From Ostrinia nubilalis (lineage: Eukaryota > Arthropoda > Insecta > Lepidoptera > Crambidae), in assembly GCF_963855985.1 (NCBI RefSeq), contig NC_087118.1, positions 11,118,501-11,182,500 on the forward strand: a stretch of 64,000 nt of DNA. Reading direction: 5' to 3'. A program made the position numbers and the translations under genes. Under the pieces are notes generated by a model. It was not told the DNA's origin, ran no database searches, and saw nothing but the letters and a program-made list of their open reading frames with translations. Below are positions 29,001-54,084 of this stretch, in pieces; the stretch's first letter is position 1, and every line of letters begins with the position of its first letter.

Positions 29001-32000
29001 CGAAGGCAGCGCCTGTTCACAGACATGACGGATGAGCCAGCCATCGCTTCACTCGATCATATTTTAGAGAATGTAACGACCCGCCTCACCACGCCACCAC
29101 CCCAGAGACATTTTAGTGAGAATGACAAATCCAAGATATCTTTTTTCATACTCTAATGATAGTAATAATTCAGACTGAAAAAACTTAAACACAATAAGAT
29201 TGAAGAGGATCCCTTTCAATCGTGTAATGTGTTATTACCAATAATGTGACTGTTTTGACACTAAAGTAACCAAAAATATTTTTGACTATCTATGGGAACT
29301 GTGGCAAAGTAATGCTATAACATCACCCCATCCAAAATTAAAAGCGTAAAAATCTGGACAACTTGGTTTGACCAGTCCCCGAAGGCAGCGCCTGTTCACA
29401 GACATGACGGATGAGCCAGCCATCGCTTCACTCGATCATATTTTAGAGAATGTAACGACCCGCCTCACCACGCCACCACCCCAGAGACATTTTAGTGAGA
29501 ATGACAAATCCAAGATATCTTTTTTCATATTCTAATGATAGTAATAATTCAGACTGAAAAAATTTAAACACAATAAGATTGAAGAGGATCCCTTTCAATC
29601 GTGTAATGTGTTATTACCAATAATGTGACTGTTTTGACACTAAAGTAACCAAAAATATTTTTGACTATCTATGCTATGGGAACTGTGGCAAAGTAATACT
29701 ATAACATCACCCCATTCAAAATTAAAAGCGTAAAAATCTGGACAACTTGGTTTGACCAGTCCCCGAAGGCAGCGCCTGTTCACAGACATGACGGATGAGC
29801 CAGCCATCGCTTCACTCGATCATATTTTAGAGAATGTAACGACCCGCCTCACCACGCCACTACCCCAGAGACATTTTAGTGAGAATGACAAATCCAAGAT
29901 ATCTTTTTTCATATTCTAATGATAGTAATAATTCAGACTGAAAAAACTCAAACACAATAAGATTGAAGAGGATCCCTTTCAATCGTGTAATGTGTTATTA
30001 CCAATAATGTGACTGTTTTGACACTAAAGTAACCAAAAATATTTTTGACTATCTATGGGAACTGTGGCAAAGTAATGCTATAACATCACCCCATCCAAAA
30101 TTAAAAGCGTAAAAATCTGGACAACTTGGTTTGACCAGTCCCCGAAGGCAGCGCCTGTTCACAGACATGACGGATGAGCCAGCCATCGCTTCACTCGATC
30201 ATATTTTAGAGAATGTAACGACCCGCCTCACCACGCCACCACCCCAGAGACATTTTAGTGAGAATGACAAATCCAAGATATCTTTTTTCATATTCTAATG
30301 ATAGTAATAATTCAGACTGAAAAAATTTAAACACAATAAGATTGAAGAGGATCCCTTTCAATCGTGTAATGTGTTATTACCAATAATGTGACTGTTTTGA
30401 CACTAAAGTAACCAAAAATATTTTTGACTATCTATGCTATGGGAACTGTGGCAAAGTAATACTATAACATCACCCCATTCAAAATTAAAAGCGTAAAAAT
30501 CTGGACAACTTGGTTTGACCAGTCCCCGAAGGCAGCGCCTGTTCACAGACATGACGGATGAGCCAGCCATCGCTTCACTCGATCATATTTTAGAGAATGT
30601 AACGACCCGCCTCACCACGCCACCACCCCAGAGACATTTTAGTGAGAATGACAAATCCAAGATATCTTTTTTCATATTCTAATGATAGTAATAATTCAGA
30701 CTGAAAAAATTTAAACACAATAAGATTGAAGAGGATCCCTTTCAATCGTGTAATGTGTTATTACCAATAATGTGACTGTTTTGACACTAAAGTAACCAAA
30801 AATATTTTTGACTATCTATGCTATGGGAACTGTGGCAAAGTAATACTATAACATCACCCCATTCAAAATTAAAAGCGTAAAAATCTGGACAACTTGGTTT
30901 GACCAGTCCCCGAAGGCAGCGCCTGTTCACAGACATGACGGATGAGCCAGCCATCGCTTCACTCGATCATATTTTAGAGAATGTAACGACCCGCCTCACC
31001 ACGCCACCACCCCAGAGCCATTTTAGTGAGAATGACAAATCCAAGATATCTTTTTTCATATTCTAATGATAGTAATAATTCAGACTGAAAAAACTTAAAC
31101 ACAATAAGATTGAAGAGGATCCCTTTCAATCGTGTAATGTGTAATTACCAATAATGTGACTGTTTTGACACTAAAGTAACCAAAAATATTTTTGACTATC
31201 TATGGGAACTATGGCAAAGTAATGCTATAACATCACCCCATCCAAAATTAAAAGCGTAAAAATCTGGACAACTTGGTTTGACCAGTCCCCGAAGGCAGCG
31301 CCTGTTCACAGACATGACGGATGAGCCAGCCATCGCTTCACTCGATCATATTTTAGAGAATGTAACGACCCGCCTCACCACGCCACCACCCCAGAGCCAT
31401 TTTAGTGAGAATGACAAATCCAAGATATCTTTTTTCATATTCTAATGATAGTAATAATTCAGACTGAAAAAACTCAAACACAATAAGATTGAAGAGGATC
31501 CCTTCCAATCGTGTAATGTGTTATTACCAATAATGTGACTGTTTTGACACTAAAGTAACCAAAAATATTTTTGACCATCTATGGGAACTGTGGCAAAGTA
31601 ATGCTATAACATCACCCCATCCAAAATTAAAAGCGTAAAAATCTGGACAACTTGGTTTGACCAGTCCCCGAAGGCAGCGCCTGTTCACAGACATGACGGA
31701 TGAGCCAGCCATCGCTTCACTCGATCATATTTTAGAGAATGTAACGACCCGCCTCACCACGCCACCACCCCAGAGCCATTTTAGTGAGAATGACAAATCC
31801 AAGATATCTTTTTTCATATTCTAATGATAGTAATAATTCAGACTGAAAAAACTCAAACACAATAAGATTGAAGAGGATCCCTTTCAATCGTGTAATGTGT
31901 AATTACCAATAATGTGACTGTTTTGACACTAAAGTAACCAAAAATATTTTTGACTATCTATGGGAACTATGGCAAAGTAATGCTATAACATCACCCCATC

Positions 32001-35000
32001 CAAAATTAAAAGCGTAAAAATCTGGACAACTTGGTTTGACCAGTCCCCGAAGGCAGCGCCTGTTCACAGACATGACGGATGAGCCAGCCATCGCTTCACT
32101 CGATCATATTTTAGAGAATGTAACGACCCGCCCCACCACGCCACCACCCCAGAGACATTTTAGTGAGAATGACAAATCCAAGATATCTTTTTTCATATTC
32201 TAATGATAGTAATAATTCAGACTGAACTTAAACACAATAAGATTGAAGAGGATCCCTTCCAATCGTGTAATGTTTTATTACCAATAATGTGACTTTTTTG
32301 ACACTAAAGTAACCAAAAATATTTTTGACTATCTATGGGAACTGTGGCAAAGTAATATTATAACATCACTCTATTAAAAATTAAAAGCATAGGAATCTGG
32401 ACACCTTGGATTGACCAGTCCCCGAAGGCAGCGCCTGTTCACAGACATGACGGATGAGCCAGCCATCGCTTCACTCGATCATATTTTAGAGAATGTAACG
32501 ACCCGCCTCACCACGCCACCACCCCAGAGACATTTTAGTGAGAATGACAAATCCAAGATATCTTTTTTCATACTCTAATGATAGTAATAATTCAGACTGA
32601 AAAAACTTAAACACAATAAGATTGAAGAGGATCCCTTTCAATCGTGTAATGTGTTATTACCAATAATGTGACTGTTTTGACACTAAAGTAACCAAAAATA
32701 TTTTTGACTATCTATGGGAACTGTGGCAAAGTAATGCTATAACATCACCCCATCCAAAATTAAAAGCGTAAAAATCTGGACAACTTGGTTTGACCAGTCC
32801 CCGAAGGCAGCGCCTGTTCACAGACATGACGGATGAGCCAGCCATCGCTTCACTCGATCATATTTTAGAGAATGTAACGACCCGCCTCACCACGCCACCA
32901 CCCCAGAGACATTTTAGTGAGAATGACAAATCCAAGATATCTTTTTTCATATTCTAATGATAGTAATAATTCAGACTGAAAAAATTTAAACACAATAAGA
33001 TTGAAGAGGATCCCTTTCAATCGTGTAATGTGTTATTACCAATAATGTGACTGTTTTGACACTAAAGTAACCAAAAATATTTTTGACTATCTATGCTATG
33101 GGAACTGTGGCAAAGTAATACTATAACATCACCCCATTCAAAATTAAAAGCGTAAAAATCTGGACAACTTGGTTTGACCAGTCCCCGAAGGCAGCGCCTG
33201 TTCACAGACATGACGGATGAGCCAGCCATCGCTTCACTCGATCATATTTTAGAGAATGTAACGACCCGCCTCACCACGCCACTACCCCAGAGACATTTTA
33301 GTGAGAATGACAAATCCAAGATATCTTTTTTCATATTCTAATGATAGTAATAATTCAGACTGAAAAAACTCAAACACAATAAGATTGAAGAGGATCCCTT
33401 TCAATCGTGTAATGTGTTATTACCAATAATGTGACTGTTTTGACACTAAAGTAACCAAAAATATTTTTGACTATCTATGGGAACTGTGGCAAAGTAATGC
33501 TATAACATCACCCCATCCAAAATTAAAAGCGTAAAAATCTGGACAACTTGGTTTGACCAGTCCCCGAAGGCAGCGCCTGTTCACAGACATGACGGATGAG
33601 CCAGCCATCGCTTCACTCGATCATATTTTAGAGAATGTAACGACCCGCCTCACCACGCCACCACCCCAGAGACATTTTAGTGAGAATGACAAATCCAAGA
33701 TATCTTTTTTCATATTCTAATGATAGTAATAATTCAGACTGAACTTAAACACAATAAGATTGAAGAGGATCCCTTCCAATCGTGTAATGTTTTATTACCA
33801 ATAATGTGACTGTTTTGACACTAAAGTAACCAAAAATATTTTTGACTATCTATGCTATGGGAACTGTGGCAAAGTAATACTATAACATCACCCCATTCAA
33901 AATTAAAAGCGTAAAAATCTGGACAACTTGGTTTGACCAGTCCCCGAAGGCAGCGCCTGTTCACAGACATGACGGATGAGCCAGCCATCGCTTCACTCGA
34001 TCATATTTTAGAGAATGTAACGACCCGCCTCACCACGCCACCACCCCAGAGACATTTTAGTGAGAATGACAAATCCAAGATATCTTTTTTCATATTCTAA
34101 TGATAGTAATAATTCAGACTGAAAAAATTTAAACACAATAAGATTGAAGAGGATCCCTTTCAATCGTGTAATGTGTTATTACCAATAATGTGACTGTTTT
34201 GACACTAAAGTAACCAAAAATATTTTTGACTATCTATGCTATGGGAACTGTGGCAAAGTAATACTATAACATCACCCCATTCAAAATTAAAAGCGTAAAA
34301 ATCTGGACAACTTGGTTTGACCAGTCCCCGAAGGCAGCGCCTGTTCACAGACATGACGGATGAGCCAGCCATCGCTTCACTCGATCATATTTTAGAGAAT
34401 GTAACGACCCGCCTCACCACGCCACTACCCCAGAGACATTTTAGTGAGAATGACAAATCCAAGATATCTTTTTTCATATTCTAATGATAGTAATAATTCA
34501 GACTGAAAAAACTCAAACACAATAAGATTGAAGAGGATCCCTTTCAATCGTGTAATGTGTTATTACCAATAATGTGACTGTTTTGACACTAAAGTAACCA
34601 AAAATATTTTTGACTATCTATGCTATGGGAACTGTGGCAAAGTAATACTATAACATCACCCCATCCAAAATTAAAAGCGTAAAAATCTGGACAACTTGGT
34701 TTGACCAGTCCCCGAAGGCAGCGCCTGTTCACAGACATGACGGATGAGCCAGCCATCGCTTCACTCGATCATATTTTAGAGAATGTAACGACCCGCCTCA
34801 CCACGCCACCACCCCAGAGACATTTTAGTGAGAATGACAAATCCAAGATATCTTTTTTCATATTCTAATGATAGTAATAATTCAGACTGAAAAAATTTAA
34901 ACACAATAAGATTGAAGAGGATCCCTTTCCATCGTGTAATGTGTTATTACCAATAATGTGACTGTTTTGACACTAAAGTAACCAAAAATATTTTTGACTA

Positions 35001-36297
35001 TCTATGCTATGGGAACTGTGGCAAAGTAATACTATAACATCACCCTATTCAAAATTAAAAGCGTAAAAATCTGGACAACTTGGTTTGACCAGTCCCCGAA
35101 GGCAGCGCCTGTTCACAGACATGACGGATGAGCCAGCCATCGCTTCACTCGATCATATTTTAGAGAATGTAACGACCCGCCTCACCACGCCACCACCCCA
35201 GAGACATTTTAGTGAGAATGACAAATCCAAGACATCTTTTTTCATATTCTAATGATAGTAATAATTCAGACTGAAAAAACTTAAACACAAGATTGAAGAG
35301 GATCCCTTCCAATCGTGTAATGTGTTATTACCAATAATGTGACTGTTTTGACACTAAAGTAACCAAAAATATTTTTGACTACCTATGGGAACTGTGGCAA
35401 AGTAATGCTATAACATCACCCCATCCAAAATTAAAAGCGTAAAAATCTGGACAACTTGGTTTGACCAGTCCCCGAAGGCAGCGCCTGTTCACAGACATGA
35501 CGGATGAGCCAGCCATCGCTTCACTCGATCATATTTTAGAGAATGTAACGACCCGCCTCACCACGCCACCACCCCAGAGACATTTTAGTGAGAATGACAA
35601 ATCCAAGATATCTTTTTTCATATTCTAATGATAGTAATAATTCAGACTGAAAAAATTTAAACACAATAAGATTGAAGAGGATCCCTTTCAATCGTGTAAT
35701 GTGTTATTACCAATAATGTGACTGTTTTGACACTAAAGTAACCAAAAATATTTTTGACTATCTATGCTATGGGAACTGTGGCAAAGTAATACTATAACAT
35801 CACCCCATTCAAAATTAAAAGCGTAAAAATCTGGACAACTTGGTTTGACCAGTCCCCGAAGGCAGCGCCTGTTCACAGACATGACGGATGAGCCAGCCAT
35901 CGCTTCACTCGATCATATTTTAGAGAATATAACGACCCGCCTCACCACGCCACCACCCCAGAGACATTTTAGTGAGAATGACAAATCCAAGACATCTTTT
36001 TTCATATTCTAATGATAGTAATAATTCAGACTGAAAAAACTTAAACACAAGATTGAAGAGGATCCCTTCCAATCGTGTAATGTGTTATTACCAATAATGT
36101 GACTGTTTTGACACTAAAGTAACCAAAAATATTTTTGACTACCTATGGGAACTGTGGCAAAGTAATGCTATAACATCACCCCATCCAAAATTAAAAGCGT
36201 AAAAATCTGGACAACTTGGTTTGACCAGTCCCCGAAGGCAGCGCCTGTTCACAGACATGACGGATGAGCCAGCCATCGCTTCACTCGATCATATTTT
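26062..36297. repeat. 380-bp satellite array, 27 tandem units
   Basis: About 10.2 kb of tandem units averaging 380 bp. Each contains CCACCCCAGAG, TTTTAGTGAGAATGACAAAT, AGAGGATCCCTT and CAGTCCCCGAAGGCAGCGCC. Units differ by point changes and small insertions, such as an extra CTATG before GGGAACTG. A block of about seven units starting near 27960 recurs almost unchanged 3,422 bp (nine units) later near 31382, so the array has higher-order structure. Two units near 35188 and 35947 share a rarer variant. A 62-codon minus-strand frame is open in only four units and broken by TAG elsewhere, so it is not coding. Confidence 0.95.
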
Positions 36298-36508
36298 AGA
36301 GACATTTTAGTGAGAATGACAAATTCAAGATCTTTCTTTTTAATTTAATAAAAATAACAATTCAGACTGAAGATAATCTTGACAATGGAGGGGATCACTT
36401 TATTGTCATAATGTTTTATTACTAATTTATGATATTAATTTATGCAACATAGTATTAAAAATAGGTCAAGTTGCGGCGGGAGTGGCCCCTTGGCCATCCC
36501 TAAAGCCA
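36298..36508 (-). mobile_element. Degenerate last unit and right terminal sequence of the satellite-bearing element
   Basis: From 36298 a strongly diverged satellite unit follows (TTTTAGTGAGAATGACAAAT, then AATTCAGACTGAAG). It runs without a break into the terminal block at 36456-36508 (AATAGGTCAAGTTGCGGCGG, TGGCC, CCCTAAAGCC), the inverted counterpart of 25959-26010. This suggests the satellite grew out of the element's own interior. No transposase is visible. Confidence 0.55.
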
Positions 36509-36529
36509 ACTGCATTTTTTTACATACAA

Positions 36530-36692
36530 TATAAAAAAAATCGGAAAACCGCGGTTTAGATAGCAAGAAACAAACGGACATTTTCATTACGTCACGGTCA
36601 TTGCATGGGTTCAAATATTATATGTGCTCCCTCGAAAACCTACTCTCTACATAACCGTTTAAAGCACTTTATATATCTATAAAAGTACCTAT
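36530..36692 (-). pseudogene. Helitron Rep remnant with internal deletion
   Basis: The minus strand reads CFKRL..E, AHIIFEPM and then SVCFLLSKPRFSD. These match residues about 623-643 and 732-744 of the intact Helitron protein (CFKRLSQE, AHLIFEP, RCLLLSEPRFSE). About 90 residues between the two blocks are missing and a stop interrupts the first. It is a decayed relative lying only 1.1 kb from the intact copy. Confidence 0.65.
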
Positions 36693-36773
36693 GTTATTCA
36701 GTGTAACCTACGACGCAGCGTGCATTGCTTATTCAAGTAATGCGAAAAAAAGGCTACCCCTGTACATTATTTC

Positions 36774-36907
36774 AGCTTCAACCAAACCAACGCGTGCAGA
36801 TTGCCATCGCCGGCGCGATCATAGGCCAATGACTGGTCGTGCGACCTGTCATTCGCCTATGATCGCGTCGGCGATGGTGATTTGCACGCGTTGGTTTGGT
36901 TGAAGCT
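36774..36907. repeat. 134-bp near-perfect palindrome
   Basis: The left arm starts AGCTTCAACCAAACCAACGC and the right arm ends with its exact reverse complement. Arms of about 58 bp pair with only a few mismatches around a short centre (ACTGGTCGTGCGACC). It could be a MITE or a snap-back rearrangement; short frames through it are artefacts of symmetry. Confidence 0.85.
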
Positions 36908-37004
36908 TACTTTTACAAAATGACAATTATACGATATCTATTATATGCTGGTAAGAACAATTCCGTTCAGTTACGCTTAAAACGGCATATAACTAACAAA
37001 AAAT

Positions 37005-37625
37005 CAACACACCCATTGCTCATTGCCTCCGGAACCATGCATATGTTTGTTATATTGGCATACTCGTACTTGTACCTAGACTTCCTGACATTCCGTCGAC
37101 GCTGAGGCATTCAATTGGCACAAGTGGGACATTATCAAGCGGTTATTAACCTTACCTTGATTCGTCACCCCTGCATCTTCTCTCCGGTCTCTTCCCCCTC
37201 AACTTCACGCCCGCAGCTATGCGGCTGTCGAACTCCACACTCTTCGCTTCGATGTCGTTACCTTCCCCAAGACGTCCGCCGGTGTTTCCCACAGCATCAG
37301 CAACATCAGCCCACAGGCTGGCGTGTCCCCCCAACAGTCGTCCACGTCTATCCTTCAGTTCGCCCTTCAGCGATATCATAACATCTCTTCTTCAATTTGG
37401 TTGACCGAGAAAGCTCCTATTCTAAAATCAAACACCAATGTAAATGGATTTATACTCCAAGTGACGACGCTATACCGATCCACCCCTACAGTGTAGAGAT
37501 GATATTTAACATAGCCCATTCCCCCGATACTTCACTATCTCCACTCACACCACCACACACGCATAACTCATATACACAAAACCAACATGCCCAAACAAAA
37601 ACCACCAAATTTTGAATTCATGCGA
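37005..37625 (+). repeat. Unclassified dispersed repeat, copy B
   Basis: Aligns along its length with the reverse complement of 20456-21125. The two copies are inverted relative to each other and bracket about 16 kb. The central GC-rich part resembles coding sequence in composition, but no frame is shared by both copies. Confidence 0.65.
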
Positions 37626-37805
37626 AATGAGTATAAAAAAGCAAAAATAAATAAATAATGCACGTGTATAGGCGTGTCAGCTTGATTTTAATTGATTTTA
37701 AAATATATTTACACAAAAGAATTGTCAATTGATTGATGAGGTGAATTATATTTACACTTTCCGAGAAACTGCGTAAAAATAAAAAAATATATAAAAAAAA
37801 GTAAT
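37626..37805. other. 3' flank of the Helitron gene
   Basis: AT-rich 180 bp after the stop codon of the Helitron gene. A small hairpin-like patch (GCACGTG...GGCGTG, near 37659-37677) is present, but no CTRR follows at a suitable distance, so I cannot place the Helitron 3' end. Confidence 0.35.
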
Positions 37806-40800
37806 CTAAAGAAGCTGCGGGTACACTACATTATTAAGCAAAAGTTTATCGTCGACTAATTTATCGCGCGAAACTAAAATTTTGATATCCGATTTTTCTT
37901 GGACCCGACCTAACGCTACGTACAATTGGCCATGACTGAACACGTCCGACCGCAAGTCTACGCCTACCCGATTTATAGTCTGCCCCTGACTCTTATGAAC
38001 AGTCATGGCATAACACAGAGCTAAGGGGAATTGCCGTCGCGTCATTTCGATGGGGCTGTCCGGTTCGATTGGAGCTTTAAACAAGATACGCGGAATCAAA
38101 AATTCGTTTGTTTCGCCTGGCTTGCGAACGGTTATTATGCGCGGCGTAGTTTTCACGACGATAACTTTTGTGCCATTGACCAGTCGGTCTGAAAAACTAA
38201 GATTGCGGATTATCATGCACACGCATCCTACTTTTAGTGTTAGATCATGTTCTGGAACACCCTTTGGCTGCAGTTTATTTAACGCGTCCGCGCCTAAAAA
38301 TATATCGTCCGCGTTATCGGAAAGGACTTTATCGATTGAATAAAAGTGTAACGGTTCCGACTCTACTCTATCTAATACTATGGAATTAATTTCCCTAACG
38401 TTTTGATTGTGTGTGGTGAGTATTGCTCGACCAGCACACGTGTCCGGTTCAACAATGACAACATGTGAAAAAACAAAATCTATTAAATCGTTCAAATCTG
38501 TAACATAAGAAAGGTGGGAAGTTAAATCTACTAAATTTAAAATTGAACGATTCACCTTTACTGTTTGAACCGGCAATTGATTCGATCCCAGTTTTAATAA
38601 AAAGTCAGAATACTCTGGGTCGTCTCTGTTACGTTGGGAAGTGCTCAAGTTGAAAATTTTAATTTGTTCCCAAATCGGTGAGGACTTGACTGAACAATTG
38701 ATTACGTCAGAGTTACTTTTAGCTTTTACTACGACAGGAGGTATCTGACGGAAATCTCCTGCGAAAATTACGATTTTCCCACCAAAAAGCCTGTTACACT
38801 TCATCAAATCGCGGAGAGACCTATCAAGCAGGTGAATTAAATATTTGTGAGCCATAGGGGCTTCGTCGTAAATAATAACGTCAGCTTGTCGAACAAGCTC
38901 AGCGCGCTGCGAACCATTGGTAATGCTCCAGTAACCAAGATCATCTACGGGGTTGAGGGGGAATTTAAACATGCTATGTGCCGTAATGCCGCCTACGTAA
39001 TTTTGCGCCGCGATACCTGAACTCGCCGTACACAAGACAATTCCTGAATTTCCGCGTGCGTGTGCAGTAATTACATTTAAAAGCAAAGTTTTACCTGTTC
39101 CGGCAGGCCCGTCAATGAAAATGGCAGTATTGTTAGAGTTTCGGAACTCGCTGTCACTCAGGAGAGTGTGAATATAACTAAACACGAGGTTTTGGTCGGG
39201 GGATAATTTTGGTAGCCAGCTACTCACGAACGTGTTTAACTCGTCGCGATTATATTCGACGCGCTCGCGGCCTACTTCGGTCGAATCGTCTATAACGCCC
39301 GGTAACCCTTGCTCGACAAGGGATGTCCCATGTTTACGCAATAACCGGTCGATTTGGACGAGACAAAGTTTGTACGCTTTTTCTGCGTCATCGGATAAAC
39401 GCTGCAAAAAATCCTGACCAATTAAATGTTTGTACTTATCCCACAAAGAAACGACCCTAACCCCGTTCACAGCTAAGAGTACGAAAAAGCTACGCAGCCG
39501 TGGTCCAGTCAAAAATGTAGATGCTTCCTGCATAGCAATCTCATACTCCGCTTCATCGTCCGCGATCCCGAGAGCTTTCGCAGCTTCCTGGAAAGTTTTG
39601 CACAATGGACCACCAAGTTTATATAAATCGTCGTAACTACGACACGGCTGAGACGCTAAAAGTAGACGCAAGTAAAATAATTCACCTCTGTTTGGCGCGA
39701 CCCAGAATAAACGCGATACTAATTCGCCCCTTTGCCGTCTTGTCAAAAATTTATTATTGCTCAATTCAAAGATTTCTACATTTTTTGTGGTGGGACGTCG
39801 TGAATGTACAATAAACCGCTCGTAAAAATCCAAGTACGTTATGTTATCAAACTGTTCACCGAGAGGCCTTTTAAAATAAGTTATTAAATCCGAATGAGCG
39901 CGGCGCGCGGCATCTGCTTCGGTTCCCGGCTTGAAAAAGATGGATTGTTGGCCCTCAAGGTGTACGGCGAGCTGCTTTACGTTCGGTTCGCGAGCTGTTA
40001 CGTCAAACTCTAAAATGCGCCACGTCGCTTCGCAAGAACCAAGGTAACGTTTGGTGACATACTGCTCGATTTCATTGTTTTTATCTGAATCGGGAACGAC
40101 AGTAACGCGCGATTCGTCAGGACCTTTGGTCATGTATTTGAATAAATATTTGACGATCGCGCGTGCGGAATATGCTAATAAATTTATGTGACAGTCATAC
40201 TTGAGGAGAAGAGCGGCATTGTACGGAACAACCCACAAATCACTAACCGTTACGTCTCTATTTCTAAATTTAATCGTGGCTTGGTTTTTACTATCACGGC
40301 GTAAATGAACAAAACCTTTGTCATCGCAGTAAGTTACAGCCGTTTCAGATTTGGGGAAATACTTTGTGCATTTCATTTTTTCAGTATCCCAACATGGCAA
40401 ATCTGTTCTATGTGGAGGTCCACATGGGCCGTGTATCATGTGATCAAGCACAGCCTTGCGTAATCTACCACCTGCCTCAGAAGGAGGAGGGATATCTGCC
40501 CTTACAAATTGATCGATTTCAAAATTTTGTATGGGACCACCCCCTTCGATTCTAAAACAAATGTGGGCATGGGGCAGTCCTCGTTTTTGAAACTCTATGA
40601 CATGCATAATATACATACATCTACCAAACCAAGCACCAGTTCTAAGGTCTTTTAAAAGTTGTGCGAGTTTCAAGTTAAAAACTCTCGCACAAATTAAAGG
40701 ATTAGGCCTTTGTCCTTGTGGAGTAGATTGTTGGATCTCGGGCCACTTTGGATTGCATGTCATCGTTAAAAAGTATGATGGAGTGCCCAGTCTATTGACC

Positions 40801-43313
40801 AGTGCAATCGCATCCATATATTTAGTTTTCATATACCGTGGACCTCCAGTAAATGTATTGGGCAGATAGACACGTCCCGGCACAACACCACCCTCTCCCC
40901 GTATGGTTTCATCTGCTGCTATCTGGTTACTAATTTCTACCGAGTTTTCTACTTCCTGAAGGGGAGCAGATCTAAGAGCAGCATCTGAGGAATGATTCTG
41001 CATGTTAAAAATGTACCTAAGTCGTTCCTCTGAAATTCTACAGAACATATCTACTATCCATTCCTCAGAAAGTCTGCTCAACTCTGAAAACCGCGGCTCA
41101 GATAGCAACAAACAACGGACGTATTTATTTTGTGTTAGTTTTACGCCGTTGTTATCGAGTCTATTCGGTAACCAACCGGGATTACCGTGTGGATACAGCA
41201 AAGGATATTGGAAAGTTTCATACAGCGGATGTAAAATGTCTACAGTGTGCGGTTTTCGAGCACCTATGCGCCATATCACTATAGCTTTAGGAATATAGCG
41301 TTCGCGTTCTGTGCTCAGAATTGCGGCTATTTCCGAACCGATTGGCATGTCTCCCAAAATATTACCATGGGAGCGTCGCGACGTGGGTTCAAATATCAAA
41401 TGTGCCTCCTCGGAAGGCTCCTGACTTAAACGTTTAAAACAATCTATGTACGGACTAACATTATGCATAAAATTGGTAATGCAGCGAACTACCTCCATGT
41501 CTAAATTTTGGCTTACAGCTGTCCTTTCCCTTTCGTCGTAAATGTACATACCGATAGGATTATATGTGTCAGTGTAAGCTAAATCAAAAACGCGATGGTA
41601 AGTTCGGCCTTGAATTTTTAAGAAAGACACACCGGAATTTGGTTGATGAAAACCATGAGAAACGCCTAATGCGCTAAACGAAAACAAATTATTGAAAGCT
41701 CGCGGTCTTAGAAGGAAAGCTGGGTGGGTATAGAACTCTTCGGTTAACGGCGGTAAATTTTGAACATTATATGCTCCAGAACCACAACACCATTTGACTC
41801 TACCTTTTTCCTCTACAAAAATTCGCGCCTGACATTGAGGACATCTGAGAATATCATTTAAAGACAGTTTTTTGAAAGAATGAGTTTGAAGTGAATCTAA
41901 ATCGTCGTTTTGTTTTTGCCCGATCAAAATATTGGAATTACGCAACGCGGGTTCTAAATTTCTGTTTACTACATTATATTGTTGTGACGCTTCTTTATTA
42001 ACTTCCGGATTTTGTTGCGAATACCGTTTTACCGCGTCCCTATTAACCGAGGGATTATTTTGCGCGTACCGTTTAACCGCGTCCCTGTGAACGGAGGGAT
42101 TGTTTTGAGAGTATCGTTTGACCGCGTCCCTGTGAACGGAGGGATTGTTTTGAGAGTATCGTTTGACCGCATCCCTGTGAACGGAGGGATTGTTTTGCGA
42201 GTATCGTGAAACTGCGTCCCTATGAACCGAGGGATTTTTTTGAGTGTACCGTTTAACCGCGTCCCTATTGATAGTTGGGTTCTGGGCAGCATATCGTTTA
42301 ACAGCCTCTCGGTGTCTAATAGTTTTAGTTGACGCTACGTTTTCATCGACCCGATCAATTACAACGACTGGCTTTAATTTTAATTTGACATCAGAATGTG
42401 CAATACTGACGGACAAAGGTTTCGCATCATGGGCAATTTTTAACGCAGTTAAATCTACTCGCTCAAGAACCACAACTGGTTTTAATTTTTCATTAATTAA
42501 TTTAGATTTTTTCGGTGCGGAAGAATCTACTTTAGATTTAGATGATCTCTTTTTTTTGGGTCGACCTCGTTTGGTTGATTGCACCGGTGCAATGTCTATT
42601 GATTCTAACTCAACTTTTTCAAGGACTACGACAGGTTTCAACGTTGTTAATTTCGCGTCGCGTGGCTCGAGTGGGACGACGGGATCTAAGTTTAGCGCAA
42701 AATTTACTACAGTTAATTTATGTATAGAATATTGCGCCGAGGTATACGCATGTCCTATGAACAGTAATTTTGCGAGATCTTCTAAATTTTGGCAACAAAA
42801 CAAACGCGCCTTATTTTGAGTTTCGTCCCGATGATTAAATTTATTATTGATGCCAACCGCATGGCTATTAAATAAATAAAATTTGTTGCCAAATTTCCAA
42901 AAAGAAACCGTATAATTGTTCCCGGTGAACAAGTAACTATCCCGAGTATCGTTACGTTCGCGAGTGAATACACGGTCGCGCAAAATATGAACTAACTGCA
43001 ATGTTGCAACATCAACATCGCGCAGTGAAGCTGGAAAAAGCCCGTTTTCAATCCAGTTGGGTTCCATTGCATTAATTTTAACAGCGAAGTTCCCTACTCG
43101 ATAATCATTTGGCAATTCGTCTGGTAATAAGAAAACGTGGTCCCGAGGTTTACACTGCAAGTAAAGTAAATCACCGTACTGAAGAATAGTATTGATATCC
43201 GCAACATCAAACACGGCCCGATTTTTAATAACTGACAAAGCGGATGCACATGCTGACATGGCTACACACTGTGCATTATTACCTTTATACCGTGCATCGC
43301 CTTGATGGGACAA
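37806..43313 (-). CDS. Helitron Rep/helicase with N-terminal cysteine-peptidase-like domain
   Basis: One uninterrupted 1,835-codon frame. Residues 1-205 look like a papain-fold peptidase of the C76/OTU kind: Cys16 in NAQCVAM and a late FNSHAVG with His151, where the usual Asp is Asn. Then come an AT-hook (KRGRPKKK, 248-255), three LKPVVVL-type repeats (225-320), seven 15-residue repeats (334-438) and a CPQC...CC zinc knuckle (491-510). The Helitron N-domain and Rep follow, with the HUH motif LPHAHICF (His915, His917) and two tyrosines in KYLFKY (Tyr1056, Tyr1060). The Pif1-type helicase has GPAGTGKT (1402-1409), YDEAP (1482-1486), GDFRQIPP (1519-1526) and VHKSQGQT (1772-1779). Rep nicks and joins DNA for rolling-circle transposition and the helicase unwinds it. 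The first codon taken here is TTG, and TAA lies seven codons upstream; the first in-frame ATG is residue 19. All core residues are present, so it may be active. Confidence 0.93.
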   Translation of the reverse strand: MSHQGDARYKGNNAQCVAMSACASALSVIKNRAVFDVADINTILQYGDLLYLQCKPRDHVFLLPDELPNDYRVGNFAVKINAMEPNWIENGLFPASLRDVDVATLQLVHILRDRVFTRERNDTRDSYLFTGNNYTVSFWKFGNKFYLFNSHAVGINNKFNHRDETQNKARLFCCQNLEDLAKLLFIGHAYTSAQYSIHKLTVVNFALNLDPVVPLEPRDAKLTTLKPVVVLEKVELESIDIAPVQSTKRGRPKKKRSSKSKVDSSAPKKSKLINEKLKPVVVLERVDLTALKIAHDAKPLSVSIAHSDVKLKLKPVVVIDRVDENVASTKTIRHREAVKRYAAQNPTINRDAVKRYTQKNPSVHRDAVSRYSQNNPSVHRDAVKRYSQNNPSVHRDAVKRYSQNNPSVHRDAVKRYAQNNPSVNRDAVKRYSQQNPEVNKEASQQYNVVNRNLEPALRNSNILIGQKQNDDLDSLQTHSFKKLSLNDILRCPQCQARIFVEEKGRVKWCCGSGAYNVQNLPPLTEEFYTHPAFLLRPRAFNNLFSFSALGVSHGFHQPNSGVSFLKIQGRTYHRVFDLAYTDTYNPIGMYIYDERERTAVSQNLDMEVVRCITNFMHNVSPYIDCFKRLSQEPSEEAHLIFEPTSRRSHGNILGDMPIGSEIAAILSTERERYIPKAIVIWRIGARKPHTVDILHPLYETFQYPLLYPHGNPGWLPNRLDNNGVKLTQNKYVRCLLLSEPRFSELSRLSEEWIVDMFCRISEERLRYIFNMQNHSSDAALRSAPLQEVENSVEISNQIAADETIRGEGGVVPGRVYLPNTFTGGPRYMKTKYMDAIALVNRLGTPSYFLTMTCNPKWPEIQQSTPQGQRPNPLICARVFNLKLAQLLKDLRTGAWFGRCMYIMHVIEFQKRGLPHAHICFRIEGGGPIQNFEIDQFVRADIPPPSEAGGRLRKAVLDHMIHGPCGPPHRTDLPCWDTEKMKCTKYFPKSETAVTYCDDKGFVHLRRDSKNQATIKFRNRDVTVSDLWVVPYNAALLLKYDCHINLLAYSARAIVKYLFKYMTKGPDESRVTVVPDSDKNNEIEQYVTKRYLGSCEATWRILEFDVTAREPNVKQLAVHLEGQQSIFFKPGTEADAARRAHSDLITYFKRPLGEQFDNITYLDFYERFIVHSRRPTTKNVEIFELSNNKFLTRRQRGELVSRLFWVAPNRGELFYLRLLLASQPCRSYDDLYKLGGPLCKTFQEAAKALGIADDEAEYEIAMQEASTFLTGPRLRSFFVLLAVNGVRVVSLWDKYKHLIGQDFLQRLSDDAEKAYKLCLVQIDRLLRKHGTSLVEQGLPGVIDDSTEVGRERVEYNRDELNTFVSSWLPKLSPDQNLVFSYIHTLLSDSEFRNSNNTAIFIDGPAGTGKTLLLNVITAHARGNSGIVLCTASSGIAAQNYVGGITAHSMFKFPLNPVDDLGYWSITNGSQRAELVRQADVIIYDEAPMAHKYLIHLLDRSLRDLMKCNRLFGGKIVIFAGDFRQIPPVVVKAKSNSDVINCSVKSSPIWEQIKIFNLSTSQRNRDDPEYSDFLLKLGSNQLPVQTVKVNRSILNLVDLTSHLSYVTDLNDLIDFVFSHVVIVEPDTCAGRAILTTHNQNVREINSIVLDRVESEPLHFYSIDKVLSDNADDIFLGADALNKLQPKGVPEHDLTLKVGCVCMIIRNLSFSDRLVNGTKVIVVKTTPRIITVRKPGETNEFLIPRILFKAPIEPDSPIEMTRRQFPLALCYAMTVHKSQGQTINRVGVDLRSDVFSHGQLYVALGRVQEKSDIKILVSRDKLVDDKLLLNNVVYPQLL
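41973..42317 (-). repeat. 45-bp coding repeat inside the Helitron gene
   Basis: Seven tandem 45-bp units plus a degenerate eighth encode the 15-residue pattern HRDAVKRYSQNNPSV. The middle units are nearly identical in DNA, which points to recent unequal exchange. A basic, tyrosine-containing motif ending in NP is reminiscent of repeats in other helicase-type mobile proteins; its role is unknown. Confidence 0.9.
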
Positions 43314-45589
43314 TCCTTTACCAGAAATTAATAATTAATAATAGTCTGATTGACAATGAAGTCGCGCTTATTATGCATTACGAATCCTACATAATTTAAA
43401 AGAAAGTAATTTGCTTCGAAATACAAAATGCAGGTGGTTTCTTTATTTTCAGATAATATGCTGATACCTTATCAAGACAAAAATAACGAAAACTCTAAAA
43501 AGATTCAAGTCAATCTTCTCTTAAAATTATTGTCATAAAATATAAACGTGTAAAGAATGCAACTTCAGTATCTAAATTGAATGATAAAAAGTGTTATAGA
43601 TTTATATGACACAGGGAAGATAATTAAAAGATTGGTCACATAATTAATGCTAATTTTCAACTCAGTTATGTAATATTATAAAAATACTTTCATTATCTTC
43701 TAACACTCTCCGCTAAAATATCTAAAGTATTTTGACAAGGCCTTAGAACATCACCTTAAAGCAATATCAATCATGCTAATTTTGAGGTACACACAGAAAA
43801 CAAAATGACAAACTATAGTGCCAACAAATTTTCTGAAAATAAATAGTCAATAAATTCATATTCAGTTATAAATGGTTATGCAATGAACAAGTGATAAATT
43901 TTACAATGCCTACCTGATTAATTACTTTTATTGTTTTGGTAATTGAAATTAAGTTTGTTTTTTACTAATAAATAAAAGAAATTAAATTAAATTTAAAAGT
44001 AGATATACCTACCTATAGAGACCTACCTAAACCGAAAATCCAAACTCATACAATTAACAGCAGCTAGTGCTAATAGTAATAAGAAGTTTAATGTAAACAA
44101 AAGTTTGAAATTTTATTATAATTGAACAACAACATTACCTACTTAAGTAGGTAGGTAATGTATCCAAATTACTAAAGAAAACAGTAAATTGTATTAAAAA
44201 CAAATGCCTACCAGTTAAGGTATGTAATGATGGAAATCAATGATTATACAAATTAGTACTAACCTATTTTACTGTAACTGTACCATTTTGCAGTAAGTTC
44301 ATATTACAACAAGTAATTTTATTAGGCTAATCCTACCTAAAAATGCATTGCATTGATACAATATTTCCTAAAATAAAACTAATGCAAATTCAAATAACAG
44401 GCTTGCCTAACCCCATTGAGACAATAAGTAGGTACCTATCTACCTAATTTCTGCTTATCAAACATACCTAAATTAAATTAGTAATAATATGAATCAAAAG
44501 AAATTTAGAATTTATGTTTCTGTAAAAATGAAAAATATTATAGGACCTTAGATTAATAATCTAAGTAGATATAGGACCAATTTCAAACATGATGAATATT
44601 GATAACTTCAATCAATTGGTGCACATCTATTTGAATTTAATTAATTTATGACAAGAGATAAAAATTCAATGTTATTAATACCACTATTCAAGTAGGTAAA
44701 TTATAATTAGTATAATTATTAATCTTGATTTATAAAAGGCTAGATGTTATGGTCAGATCCAGACATATACAAGTTCAAAAAAAAGTAGGTACCTATACCT
44801 AGTAAGATGAATGTCAAATCAGAATTCAACGCACTAAATTGAAAATATTGATAAATAAATACAAATATAACAAGCGCAGGATATATTTAAGTAGTATCAA
44901 ATGCAAATAATCCTATTGCAAATCTGAAGGTTTTCAAATAATATTTAAACTGCATTGATATTACCTACCAATATTTGAGAAGGATTCAATCAAGTTCTTA
45001 TTATTGATTTGATTTCAGAGCAAATCAATTATTTTAACTACACTGAAACATTAATTAAATTAGATGTGATTCAATAAATGCTTTGTTTATAATAAGAACT
45101 AAAGTTATGCTTACTTGTGTATTTTAAATACCTAATGTAACACCAATTTCAACAGTAAATAATCCTACATGTAAAATTATTTTACATAACTATTCATATG
45201 AAAACCATCTCAGAGTAAGAAGATCCAAATAACTTTTATTGATAGATAATGTGAATTTATGTTCATCAACAATGAAATGATAACTTGCCTGTTAGGACAT
45301 TATTAATACAAGTACCTTGTGTGGAATTGACATGTTTCAAAATATAAAGATTTCTTACGTGTTATTAACTATTTACTGTTAGGCATGGACCTTTTTTTAT
45401 AGGTTCATGATTGTAGGTAGGTGTAGGTAATTTAAATAACTTGGCAAATAGAATAAGGGGCTACGCCCTTGTCAACCATATTTAGAAAATGTGTGAAGTT
45501 ATTGACTTGAAAAAGCTAAATCTTATGCAGTTATGAACTACCTACAACACCATTGCCAAGTCAATTATAAAAGAAGAAAAATGGCGGTC
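43314..45589. other. AT-rich stretch, 5' flank of the Helitron gene
   Basis: About 2.3 kb with very low GC. No Helitron 5' terminus (TC before an AT-rich start on the minus strand) could be placed. A short palindrome near 44133-44160 (CATTACCTACTTAAGTAGGT, then AGGTAATG) is the only structure seen. Confidence 0.4.
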
Positions 45590-46015
45590 CATAACTATTC
45601 ATCAAAGCCAAACATAGTATCTGGGGGCACGGCAGTGCCCCCGCCAAGTCGAGCGCGAAGCAAACACTGCCGTACCATCCTTTACTGGAACCATTTCGCC
45701 GCATTTTCAGGCCTCTATTTGAGAACCTTTAGATAAGACCAGAACGCAGAAATTTTCGTCATCTAGTAAGCTATAATCACACACTTAAAATCCAAAATTT
45801 CAAGTCTGTAGGTCAATTAGTTCCGAAGTTAAGCGAAAGCAAAGTTTCGCATTTATGACACTCACTCACTGATGATCATCAAAATAGAACTAGTACTTCC
45901 CATTAACTCAGAGAGCTGAAATTTGGTACAGAGTTAGGGTTTAATGGCCACATAAAGGGAAAACTATAAAAACTAGGAAAATCGAAGATCTGGAGTAACA
46001 CCACATTCATAATAA
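45590..46015. repeat. Dispersed lepidopteran repeat, unclassified
   Basis: Contains a GC hairpin (GGGGGCAC, GGCA, GTGCCCCC at 45623-45642). It continues into GACACTCACTCACTGATGAT and GAAATTTGGTACAGAGTTAG, phrases I recall from abundant butterfly repeats. There is no CTRR next to the hairpin, so I do not call it a Helitron. The 67-codon frame across it is not convincing. Confidence 0.4.
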
Positions 46016-46263
46016 TCAATACTACTAGCGCCACACCGGCGCCGTGGTGTTCGCCTGTACCGCTCACCGCTAGATGGCGCTAGCACTTTGAGCGTCGATT
46101 TTCTGCACCGCGGTGTCCAGATTTTTTTTCCCCTCTAGTTATTATTAAATCAATTCTGATTCGTTGTCCTTTTTAAAGATGTGTTTAATATCGTAAAAAA
46201 AATGACGATAATATTAAAGGACGACGTTAAATAATTATGCCACATTCTACAAAAAGAAGTGAA

Positions 46264-46776
46264 ATCCCACCAAAAACATTCTGTAAAAAACTAGCCAAGT
46301 CTCGATGGAGCTGCTTGTTTATCTCTAAAAAGTAATGAAATCTAGACAAAGTCGTGCCAAGTCTATGGTTCTTTACTGCGATTTCTTTTTTATTATAGTT
46401 AATGTTGTGTGACTTGGCCGTTGAACAATCTTTATTAAGTTAAGATAATCAATAATTATGCATAAGTATTATTGAAATACGCAGCTTTATTAAGCCTACA
46501 ATTCACTGGTTATTAAATCAACGTTTTCCAAGTGGCAATTTTCCATCGTCAATGGGTAGTGGTTCTGGCAACAGATTAGTGCAATGGTGTCATGGAGCAC
46601 CTGGTTTTGTACCCTTCAACGGCCAAGTCACACAGCATTAACTATAATAAAAAAGAAATCGCAGTAAAGAACCATAGACTTGGCACGACTTTGTCTAGAT
46701 TTCATTACTTTTTAGAGATAAACAAGCAGCTCCATCGAGACTTGGCTAGTTTTTTACAGAATGTTTTTGGTGGGAT
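46264..46776. repeat. Long inverted repeat, two 162-bp arms
   Basis: Arm 46264-46425 is the reverse complement of 46615-46776 with a single clear mismatch (T versus C near 46406), around a 189-bp spacer. It lies in what would be the intron directly downstream of the host exon at 46851-46906, with its near edge 75 bp from that exon. Transcribed, it would form a long double-stranded RNA. It may be a young foldback element; no target duplication is evident. Confidence 0.9.
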
Positions 46777-46850
46777 ATTTTTAACGAACCAAAGGACCTA
46801 AACACAGAAAATAATGGAAAGAAGAACAAATAAGACTATAAAAGACTTAC

Positions 46851-46906
46851 CCGTGGCGATGCAGACGGCCGTGGTGGAATCGTAGTTGAAGCGGGGCATC
46901 GTGAAA
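46851..46906 (-). CDS. First coding exon of an unidentified host gene
   Basis: On the minus strand an acceptor (ATAATTGCAG) precedes TTTCACG, ATG at 46899-46897, and 16 codons reading MPRFNYDSTTAVCIAT. One more base follows, then a strong donor (GTAAGTC at 46850-46844). GC content and codon use jump above the AT-rich surroundings, with third positions mostly C or G, as expected for a real exon. It leaves in phase 1. I do not recognise the protein. The next exon must lie to the left, beyond the 162-bp inverted repeat, and I could not find one with matching phase. Confidence 0.6.
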
Positions 46907-47209
46907 CTGCAATTATACACATTTAATTAACTAAAGAACCACAAATTATGGCACTGAAGAACCTAAAATACACTTAAAACTTCGATCATTACATTTTAAA
47001 AAGTTTTAAACCATAAAAAGTTGTTTGTTTAACATTATTTCATTTGTTTTACAATGGCGTCCCCTTCAACAAAAATGATGCCTACACTAACGGAACGATG
47101 AAAAGAAACAATTAAGTTGATATATCATCAAAATTGATTTGTACAATAGTATTTTATTATTTGACAAACCTATGGATAATAATTTTAATAATATTTACAC
47201 ATAACTTAC

Positions 47210-47300
47210 CGCGATGAAACAAGATGCAAAACAGTTGCGACCGAGAGGGAGGCGGAAGTGAATGAGCGCGAAATGTCTCAAAAGGGGCAAACTTTTTTAG
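47210..47300 (-). other. Candidate 5' untranslated exon of the same host gene
   Basis: A GC-richer stretch on the minus strand ends GTTTCATCGCG followed by GTAAGTTAT, a consensus donor. It contains no ATG. Spliced to 46906 it would place the start codon 7 bases after the junction. The upstream end (promoter side) is not defined; no TATA box was identified. Confidence 0.5.
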
Positions 47301-47698
47301 CCTACAAAACTTATGACCATAGACAACTTTTGTTTGATGATGTTTAACCTATTGGTCACCAACCTATTTCGCCTGGAACAGTAAAAAATATTTTTCTGTT
47401 TTGAAAATAAAGATTTAGGGTTTTAGGCAATCGCAAAAATACGCATAAAATAACTAAAGCATTTCTATAAGTATTTTTATCAAAGAAATATTGCACGGAA
47501 ATGTTAAACGTTTTGTATTTTAAAAAAGACCATGGCGCTCTAAAGGATATAGAACGCAACTCAGATTTTATTTAATCTGATTTGATTATGATGATTAATT
47601 ATGATAGAAAAACAATTATTAATAACAATCGGTTATTATGAATAATTTGGTAAATGTGATTAAAGAAATCATTCACGTATGTATAAAATTAAATAAAC

Positions 47699-47750
47699 TG
47701 CTTAGGGTTGGCCCAAGGTCCACCCCCGCCGCATCTAAACCTATTTATTA
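47699..47750 (+). repeat. Third copy of the satellite-element terminus
   Basis: CTTAGGGTTGGCCCAAGG, CCCCCGCCGCAT and AAACCTATTTATTA align with both ends of the satellite-bearing element. No satellite unit follows here. It shows that the terminus exists apart from the array. Confidence 0.6.
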
Positions 47751-48010
47751 AATTTTAAACAGTTCGTTTAAATTTTAAACATTCCAATCTCATTATACTA
47801 ATTTATATTAATATATTAAGATATCAAAACGTTCAAAATGTGTTGCTGTACACGCTGTACACGAGCCGGTGTTCTCTTTTAAGATATTTGTAAGTGATAA
47901 ATTAATGTGATTACTTTCTTACTTTTACCTCGACTGTCGGTAATTATTATTAATAACTGGTAAGTAACATAATATACATAAATTAAAACGAACTGTCCCA
48001 CCCGTGACAG

Positions 48011-48110
48011 TGACAGGGGGGCGCCACCACCGTCAATACCGAATCGCTGGTTCCGATTTTTGCCACGTTGGAAACTATATAGTTGAAATGATGGTGGCGC
48101 CCCCCTGTCA
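48011..48110. mobile_element. MITE-like element with GC-rich inverted repeats
   Basis: TGACAGGGGGGCGCCACCA at 48011-48029 is matched exactly in reverse complement at 48092-48110. Weaker pairing extends outward on both sides, from about 47988 to 48138. Confidence 0.7.
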
Positions 48111-48224
48111 ATGTGTTTGGTGACACGGTTCAGTTTAAATTAGTTCATCTATATGACTGTAAGTAATGAACAGCGCAGCCGCCGCCGGTCTTATTGATCC
48201 TTGAGGGGATATTGACATTAATTA

Positions 48225-50155
48225 ATCAGTAAGACGTACTATGGATCGAAATAGCGATTTATGAACATATTGATTTTTTTCTTTCACAATTTCTATTTGA
48301 AAAAAATACTTATCGAACGTAACTTACGTTATTCTGATGAATAAATGTCGTTAAAAGTTTTTCTCTAAAATCAATAGTTAGGCTGGAAAAAAATATTTTC
48401 CATTTTCGTTGTATGGAATGAAACTTAAAGTGGTCGATTTCGACTAAGCCTATGGCTTGTTGACTATAATCCTAAACTATCAGCGCGCGCCCAAAGTTGC
48501 CCGTTCAGAAGTTACAAGGTTCCAAATTATGAGTTAAATATTTGTCAGTATAGGTGTACCAGAATCTCATGGCAAACAAAAATATTGGAAAAGTGTGTTT
48601 TTCATATGGCCATTGTCTATGGCTTTATTGTCACCTGTCAAAGTAAATCACGAGATCTTTCAGCCGCTGCAGAAATTTTGTAATCTCTTCATGCCTATTT
48701 GTTATTTTTGTGAAAAAGACGAAAAAACTCAAGCAAGTCATATTGTTTTCAAAGTGTATTGTAAAATAAGGCATAATTCAAAGTCAATCTTTGATTTTAA
48801 AGCGCGTCGTTGAGTTGACAGAAAGTTGGAGTGAAATGTTTTGATACTTACCTACATTTAGTTTATTACCTAACTGCGTCAGAAAGAGGGTTATGTTTAT
48901 TTTTATATTATTCTTACCTAATAGCTGCTTTATCGGGGTTTTCAGATGTATTTCATGCATTGGTGCAGAGGAATGGTGAAAATGTTATGACCATGTAAAG
49001 AAAATTGAAAAAGATTTCATCAAGCAAGTTTGAGTAATTGAAATGCTGAAAAAGCGATTTATATTATATTAATAACTCTTTAACTTGATCATCTATTTGA
49101 AGAACAAGAAATGCAAGTGGAGTTTTTAGAATCGTTTTCTAGTTCTGAATGAAGTGATAAGTTATAAGTATGTTGGCGCCGGACACAGATGCTGCAAATT
49201 ATTATTGATGATTAATAGTAACAATCTTAATATTATGGTATCTGTATAAATCTGTAGAACGGAAGGTTTGCGATTCCTAAACGTAACACCGACAGATGCG
49301 CAGAAAAAGTTAACTGTCAATCCGTTGTGTCATGTCAAGTGTGAGCAAGCGGCTAAGAGGTTATCTTGGAAAGCGTATTGAGTTTGGTGGAACGTTAAAT
49401 TGTAGGGAAAGTGATTGTCAACCATCTAACATAATATTATCTCCTTGCCCGCTAACCCACGCCAATGGAGATTCCGCCTCTAGAGTTCCTTTTGATAGAG
49501 ACCCCGTGCCTTTAAGTATGATACTTAATAAAATTATTTACAGCACTATACGGTTTACATATTTTTCAAGACATGTTCCTATGTTAAAAACCCGATGTAT
49601 AACAACATTCTTCATACACATACATAAAATGTATAGGTAGGCATTCGTACTTCATGTTCATTAATATTAGTCATAAATAAAAATTAAACAGTATCAAGAT
49701 CGTTTAATCCAATTTCCCCAGTATTGCACTCAACAAAGTTTATTTTCCCCATTTGCCATGAGATTCTGGTACACCTATAATTTAAGGTTAATTTAAATTG
49801 TTAACGTATGGAATCTTTATATTTTCGTTGAATCTTTAAAGATATTCCAAAAAAGTCACTTTTACTAACTTTTTTTCATTTTTCAGAACCACATAACTTG
49901 TGAACGGGCAACTTTAGGCGCGCGCTGATAGTGTAGGATTATAGTCAACAAGCCATTTCATTCCATACAACGAAAATGGAAAATATTTTTTTCCAACCAA
50001 ACTATTGGTTTTAGAGAAAATCTAACGACATAATATTCATCAGAATAACGTAACGTATCGATAGGTATTTTTTTCAAATAGAAATTATGAAAAATATCGC
50101 TATGTCCATAAATCACAATTTCGATCCATAGTGTGACGTAACCTATCAATATGAA
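48225..50155. mobile_element. DNA transposon with long inverted ends
   Basis: Left (48225-48580) and right (49750-50155) segments are reverse complements with about 85 percent identity by eye. Shared blocks include ACTATGGATCGAAAT, TTATTCTGATGAATA, TTTTCGTTGTATGGAATGAA, TATCAGCGCGCGCC and GTGTACCAGAATCTCATGGC. The 1.2-kb middle has short frames (48595-48813 and 49332-49640) that I cannot assign. Terminal bases and target duplication are uncertain. It may be a non-autonomous foldback element that picked up unrelated DNA. Confidence 0.7.
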
Positions 50156-51113: not shown

Positions 51114-51259
51114 ATGTTAAAGTGATCAATAATGATGTACAACTTGTCCCGGAAAACCAATATTTAATGAAAATTAATAAAATCTTAACAAACCAAAGTA
51201 AACTGTTCATAATTCCAAAATATTTAATTGAACATAAATTGATTATTATTTTTAAATAA
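51114..51259 (+). CDS. Candidate last coding exon on the plus strand
   Basis: A good acceptor (ATTTTACTTTTCAG) is followed by a frame of 47 codons (VKVINNDVQLVPENQYLM and onward, ending LIIIFK), with TAA at 51257-51259. AATAAA follows at 51268-51273, where a poly(A) signal would be expected. The peptide is not recognised. High AT content means chance is possible, and no matching upstream exon was found. Confidence 0.3.
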
Positions 51260-51346
51260 GCCTTCTTAATAAATGAGTGTTTTAAAATTCATTGGGTTTT
51301 AATTAATATTAAATATCTAATAAGTTGAGATAAAAATTATATAGGA

Positions 51347-51408
51347 ATGTTATCAACTGAACTAAGTACCTAAATGTATATTTAGGTACTTAGTTCAGTT
51401 GATAACAT
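51347..51408. repeat. Perfect hairpin 1 (29-bp arms)
   Basis: ATGTTATCAACTGAACTAAG and the rest of a 29-bp arm pair perfectly with 51380-51408 around the four bases GTAT. Confidence 0.95.
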
Positions 51409-51411
51409 AAC

Positions 51412-52516: not shown

Positions 52517-52604
52517 TATATCCAATAATATTTATTTATTTAATTAATAACTACAATTTATAACACACAAAAGTTAGTGAGATGGCTGAAAGAAATTTTG
52601 GTAA

Positions 52605-53460: not shown

Positions 53461-53479
53461 CGTTTAAATAAAAAAATAG

Positions 53480-54078: not shown

Positions 54079-54084
54079 CGCTGG

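Follow-up and report, generated by a model that had tools for sequence, protein, structure and literature searches.

A 64,000-nucleotide stretch of the Ostrinia nubilalis genome (contig NC_087118.1, positions 11,118,501 to 11,182,500 of the forward strand; hereafter, the window) carries on its minus strand an open frame of 1,835 codons (37806-43313) that is very probably the main exon of an intact Rep-helicase (RepHel) gene, belonging to a recently active, canonical and endonuclease-less Helitron of about 34-42 kb. The encoded protein is ordered as a VTD (a tegument-type deubiquitinase domain, peptidase C76-like), a linker with an AT-hook and repeats, a Rep domain with an HUH motif and two tyrosines, and a PIF1 helicase. 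The original prediction for this frame, made from the sequence alone, rightly recognized RepHel and a preceding cysteine-peptidase-like domain, but missed the first exon, the asparagine in the catalytic triad and the 42-kb element to which the gene belongs.

The RepHel gene and its putative first exon

Read on the plus strand, positions 37806-43313 contain 99 stops. The frame, first reported without a strand, is real on the minus strand, where it extends from stop to stop between 43334 and 37806, its codons being counted from a TTG at 43313 that is not a real start. Pfam identifies Helitron_like_N (5.9e-42) and PIF1 (6.3e-50) in the protein, and the nearest solved RepHel is Helraiser (7LCC), matched at 5.7e-171 across residues 469-1834. 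The HUH histidines, both tyrosines and helicase motifs predicted earlier, as well as the AT-hook and two repeat blocks, are all present, the helicase motifs comprising Walker A (1402), DEAP, GDFRQ, VHKSQG and VALGR. The protein thus has the Rep and PIF1-type helicase of a canonical Helitron; it shows no C-terminal AP-type endonuclease of the kind found in Helentrons (Helitron2), and no Pfam match to an OTU or C48 profile. The parts of the gene are as follows:

46851..46899, minus strand: putative RepHel exon 1, MPRFNYDSTTAVCIAT plus the first base of a Gly codon, donor GTAAGT
43316..46850, minus strand: predicted intron 1, GTAAGT...AAAG
37806..43315, minus strand: exon 2, which encodes the VTD, the linker, Rep and the helicase and ends with the stop at 37806
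42699..43313, minus strand: VTD (peptidase C76-like) domain, residues 1-205; Gln4, Cys16, Asn149, His151
41976..42638, minus strand: linker with three KPVVV repeats, an AT-hook-like RGRPKK at 249 and eight 15-aa repeats
41781..41843, minus strand: CPQC...WCCG motif before Rep, a possible zinc site (motif only)
40122..41081, minus strand: Rep domain, HUH motif PHAHI at 914-918, tyrosines 1056 and 1060 (YLFKY at 1056)
37809..39206, minus strand: PIF1-type helicase, with 31 residues from motif VI to the protein end and no endonuclease

The eight 15-aa repeats are encoded by a 45-bp DNA repeat, and a probable role of the linker is to help bind DNA.

The earliest ATG in the frame is residue 19, downstream of the catalytic Cys16, and a start there was rejected because it would drop this conserved residue and because an upstream exon fits. 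In hemipteran and odonate relatives, the protein starts about 11-16 residues before an HQG motif, which C-[VI]-A-x-G precedes; this fixed the pattern for an exon 1 search (Cys-[Ile/Val/Met]-Ala-x-G followed by an in-phase GT donor) over 20.7 kb upstream on the coding strand. The pattern has a single match, at 46863; an in-frame ATG precedes it at 46899, and GTAAGT comes after it. Joined to the acceptor AAAG/GA (43316/43315), it yields a protein of 1852 aa beginning MPRFNYDSTTAVCIATGLSHQGD. The same stretch is present in 19 of the 23 copies examined (the window, two extended copies and 16 of 20 fetched 501-bp stretches), and across these 19 it varies at one of 55 columns, silently, as compared with 9 of 100 columns upstream and 29 of 118 downstream. 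We therefore infer that a short upstream exon supplies the RepHel start. Within intron 1, the window copy has an insertion at about 45620-46775, with 162-bp inverted repeats (99%), that is absent from the copies on contigs C32 and C13.

A search of the genome (495 Mb, 52 contigs) recovered at least 26 RepHel copies, the window's included, on nine contigs, a lower bound since the best 26 of 244 candidates were scored. Fourteen other copies are 96-99% identical over residues 1-1835, and the existence of many near-identical copies rules out a frame open by chance. In 19 of the 20 loci read, the frame, beginning in the same upstream region, stays open as far as its normal end, the other (L018) having one TAA; pairwise differences across the frame have a median of 1.5% and a maximum of 4.9%, and two pairs are identical. 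As part of the whole explanation, it is very probable that the family was recently active.

The VTD domain and its asparagine triad

The VTD-type ubiquitin-removing domain was first known from herpesviruses. The structure predicted for the window domain (pLDDT 88.6) has as its best fold match 8ADD, a C76-type domain, and so upholds the peptidase fold with Cys16 and His151 proposed ahead of Rep, the refuting outcome named with that proposal (a fold unlike any peptidase) not having been obtained; in predicted fold and in sequence kinship the domain is VTD-like. The catalytic Cys and His and the N-terminal Gln, whose role is known from M48 work, are kept in all 20 genomic loci read and in the homolog P0001 (59% identity). 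All 20 loci also have Asn149, so that the Asp-x-His signature is not found and the domain is best filed as a variant homolog, not as a proven VTD enzyme. Among the 20 homologs with the domain, the triad position is Asn in 8, Asp in 11 and Glu in one. Amino acid change in the domain proceeds at about one-fifth of the silent rate across the 20 loci, and the counts of amino acid to silent variants are 14/19 for the VTD, 57/73 for the linker and 69/184 for RepHel, the shared ancestry of copies making p-values on these counts optimistic. Purifying selection on the domain and its presence across an insect Helitron clade argue for a use.

An enzymatic use is less certain. By analogy with zebrafish VTDs the domain would act as a deubiquitinase, a role that the Asn triad makes uncertain. 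An unlikely but serious alternative is that the domain is no longer an enzyme and, with Asn for Asp, binds ubiquitin or DNA partners or persists as a relic. The window and 8 of the 20 homologs carry Asn, and two thrips proteins have lost further site residues (P0021 both Cys and His, P0014 His). Inactive insect VTDs are reported in the available text of Erven et al. (2022; PMC9741609); the looser constraint on the domain relative to RepHel points the same way. The retention of Gln, Cys and His in every locus and in P0001, together with the low rate of amino acid change, argues against a loss of activity. Furthermore, the papain triad itself works with Asn.

In a fold search against viral proteins, the VTD model also matched uncharacterised proteins of Indivirus, Tupanvirus, Orpheovirus and Catovirus (E 8.7e-5 to 9e-4), which may be unannotated VTD-like proteins; a search of viral contigs gave no match.

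The giant element and its tandem arrays

The RepHel frame makes up about 13% of a Helitron of 42,008 bp, which stands in the window at the head of an array of related elements:

15872..57879, minus strand: giant autonomous Helitron, 42,008 bp; 5' TCTATCTATC at 57879, 3' hairpin plus CTAG ending at 15872
54108..57879, minus strand: 5' block of 453-bp repeats, common to the short Helitrons
26057..36302, no strand given: 379-bp satellite array, 27 copies, within the element and also in the C32 and C13 copies
15872..15913, minus strand: 3' terminal hairpin plus CTAG, DNA fold -15.6 kcal/mol, z -6.4
15821..15871, minus strand: 51-bp micro-element, in which TCTATC is joined to the 3' hairpin end
13566..15820, minus strand: short non-autonomous Helitron 1, 2,255 bp
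10662..13565, minus strand: short non-autonomous Helitron 2, 2,904 bp
8439..10661, minus strand: short non-autonomous Helitron 3, 2,223 bp; its CTAG is followed by the host T at 8438
8439..57879, minus strand: whole insert, 49,441 bp, at one A/T site (in head-to-tail order, the giant, the 51-bp micro-element and the three short Helitrons)

The 5' junction at 57879 reads ...GAAA/TCTATCTATC. In a genome search with window positions 50000-60000 (best 7 of 13,551 candidates scored), at least nine pieces begin at query 2121-2147, near 57879; most of the nine are or may be short elements, and two (C31:2470164 and C36:66044) span the rest of the 10-kb query. Two other listed pieces begin past the 5' end (query 2193 and 2563). 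The 3' end, GTAGCCCGCGTAGCGGGCGACCAAAGCTAG, occurs five times in the window, ending at 15872, 15821, 13566, 10662 and 8439, and is followed by TCTATC at the first four and by host T at the last. The element thus has the 5' TC and the 3' hairpin followed by CTRR of a canonical Helitron, and its ends are shared by the three short Helitrons and the micro-element, which is perhaps a near-minimal derivative of the giant. The C32 copy is collinear with the window, indels aside, from the 453-bp block into the 379-bp array, where its sequence data end, and the C13 copy is similarly collinear from the 453-bp block, across the array and as far as the 3' end. A 3' end sought by eye near the stop codon (37806-37622) was not found, the end lying 21.9 kb further on, and 37621-36652, considered as a separate element on account of a 74% relative at 20552-21369, was set aside since both lie inside the giant.

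The insertion site was addressed with a 199-base query in which the host flanks are brought together, 57880 next to 8438 (joint at 101). All 40 matches scored (376 candidates) cross the joint and extend to base 161-187, with 21 showing 100% identity, and the 49,441-bp insert therefore lies exactly between an A and a T, with nothing lost or duplicated. The target is a repeated host sequence.

Head-to-tail arrangements recur elsewhere in the genome. Exact CTAG/TCTATC junctions number 60 (none for a reversed-pattern control), 40 of them on contig C31. A RepHel pair on C27 has a period of 41,351 bp with an exact CTAG/TC junction between its members, and the C13 copy (3111221-3145068, 33,848 bp) has an exact CTAG/TC junction on either side. 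Two junctions on C43, 41,284 bp apart, enclose a giant that is flanked by 2,246-bp short elements, and the neighbouring unit of 43,527 bp probably includes a short element with an inexact junction. Seven spacings between neighbouring copies measure 36-48 kb, and C31 (12.36 Mb, 2.5% of the genome) holds 13 of the 26 scored RepHel copies, a concentration that would fit a W chromosome. Head-to-tail Helitron arrays are known in plants and bats, according to the available part of PMC5876387.

These same spacings and the excess on C31 could be taken to mean that the mobile unit is a small Helitron and that the 42-kb composite spreads mainly by segmental duplication and unequal exchange, and remnants of other elements inside the giant (reverse transcriptase at 24416-24955, Rep scraps at 36538-36675) agree with this. 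We consider it improbable, since duplication would bring host flanks, whereas the junctions are exactly CTAG/TC; moreover, copies reside on nine contigs, nine listed pieces share the TC end (though most are or may be short, two run through the query), and the A/T insert is exact in all scored empty-site matches. Movement of the giant as one unit is favoured by its exact ends, by its occurrence on several contigs and by the low divergence.

Several observations nonetheless weigh against the reading of a giant, intact and autonomous Helitron with a VTD. One contig holds half of the scored copies, and many copies are in tandem, so that some of the spread is local duplication, which weighs against scoring every copy as an insertion. 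The empty site is that of the whole array, not of a lone giant, and the giants with both ends located number only three, with the letters read in two. Four of the 20 fetched 501-bp stretches did not show exon 1, although it may lie outside those bases. As for the VTD, it is under weaker constraint than RepHel, and the window's own domain has no Pfam peptidase match, so that it was recognized through relatives and fold; its Asn stands where the available text of PMC9741609 has an invariable Asp.

By inference from Helraiser, RepHel would nick at the TC end and its helicase would peel off one strand until the hairpin-CTAG end terminates the process. An overrun of termination or resolution, or a circle copied more than once, would then give head-to-tail arrays. 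In the least certain step, the VTD would probably strip ubiquitin from RepHel, or from proteins of repair and replication at the nick, and so let the complex last longer. The full proposal, an active autonomous unit of 34-42 kb with a 10-kb satellite array and a papain-like Cys-His-Asn VTD, whose rolling-circle overrun generates arrays of about 40-kb period concentrated on one chromosome, is tentative: plausible, but not quite probable.

The element also records other events. A near-perfect 134-bp palindrome in its 3' region (36774-36907; 66-bp arms, 91%, 2-nt loop) is absent from the 74% relative and is hence probably a fold-back insertion. The Rep coding scraps, which have the 3' region on one side and the satellite array on the other, match 41080-41129 and 41384-41450, hinting that the giant may have arisen by fusion of elements. 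Among five other long open reading frames of the window that were scanned, only the reverse-transcriptase fragment (PF00078, 1.4e-14) was clear.

Relatives and comparison with known Helitrons

The earlier claim that this combination of domains is undescribed does not hold. In the available text of PMC9741609, vertebrate, insect, cnidarian and mollusc Helitrons are described as carrying VTD domains, zebrafish Helitron VTDs are shown to cleave ubiquitin, with the structure 8ADD solved, and a role in shielding transposition proteins from degradation is suggested. Among the 120 homologs listed here, 14 have a precomputed PF04843 annotation and 20 match a profile of the window domain; an Ostrinia furnacalis protein (P0003) is 97% identical. 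The VTD in a Helitron is thus already known, and the moth element is an endonuclease-less, canonical-ended, Asn-triad variant. The literature retrieved on Helitron peptidase or deubiquitinase domains holds nothing else evidently concerned with VTD-Helitrons, and that on giant or large Helitrons nothing evidently concerned with such an autonomous element, although coverage is incomplete and no size record is claimed.

A FastTree phylogeny of 120 RepHel rows (of 121 inputs, P0038 is absent) places all 20 VTD rows, the window included, in one top-support clade of 31 rows, and both rows with OTU matches (P0039 and P0066) outside it; a Pfam C48 match is found in P0089. Nine clade rows are unlabelled, six of which begin at most 37 residues from the Rep-Hel core, and two more are C48-like by eye. 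Among the 32 rows formed by the clade and its sister P0020, 25 have 31-42 residues from helicase motif VI to the end (measured from two slightly different anchors, in 13 and 12 rows; seven rows unmeasured), and these short tails mark the VTD clade as a group without an endonuclease, no endonuclease Pfam domain being listed among the 120 rows. Three proteins inside or next to the clade (P0020, P0026 and P0035) show by eye N-terminal adenain/ULP-like H...D...Q..DCG motifs instead, which suggests a swap of one ubiquitin-type peptidase for another; in P0020 and P0026 no C48-type Pfam match is found at 0.01. That the element is itself a Helentron, the subclass to which the available text of PMC9741609 assigns VTD-Helitrons, with their C-terminal endonuclease, is very improbable despite its VTD, given the 31 residues after motif VI, the short tails of its clade, and the canonical TC, hairpin, CTAG and A/T site.

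Many intact, near-identical autonomous copies with exact ends and an identifiable empty site make it possible to study Helitron movement on a natural element instead of a reconstructed one, including its circles, its size limit and the overrun that would build tandem arrays. A tegument-type deubiquitinase domain is common to a clade of endonuclease-less Helitrons in several insect orders, and its Asn-triad variant lends itself to an easy biochemical test. Furthermore, the satellite arrays and one-contig concentration link rolling-circle transposition to moth satellite and chromosome evolution; if the proposal is true, a transposon would seed satellite DNA and large tandem repeats in a single step.

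Close counterparts are insect RepHels with PF04843, named only as uncharacterized or hypothetical proteins, among them those of Aphantopus (Maniola) hyperantus (P0002), Diaphorina citri (P0007), Macrosteles (P0010) and Ischnura (P0015). At 43-61% identity, these four share the window's order of VTD, AT-hook, 15-aa-type repeats, CxxC, Rep and Hel, but P0007, P0010 and P0015 have the triad Asp. The Rep-Hel architecture is that of Helraiser (bat Helibat, 7LCC), an element far shorter than the moth giant and, to our knowledge, without a VTD; Helraiser was reconstructed from inactive copies, whereas the moth family has many intact ones. Helraiser forms circles with its ends joined at the 5' TC, as described in the available part of PMC5876387. 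In contrast to the VTD Helitrons or Helentrons of zebrafish and other animals (DrT1, DrT2), as the available text of PMC9741609 presents them, the moth element has no AP-type endonuclease, canonical ends, Asn-x-His for Asp-x-His, one VTD, and a linker with an AT-hook and repeats. Gene-capturing maize Helitrons of up to 39 kb (PMC6431247, available part) are of the same size class, but capture gene fragments, whereas the moth giants have satellite arrays and an intact RepHel of their own. Internal tandem repeats are likewise described for oyster rolling-circle elements, which are non-autonomous, and for Helitron-2 of Drosophila virilis, with an 850-bp repeat region as against the 10-kb array of the autonomous moth element (available parts of PMC7492417 and PMC12910113, respectively).
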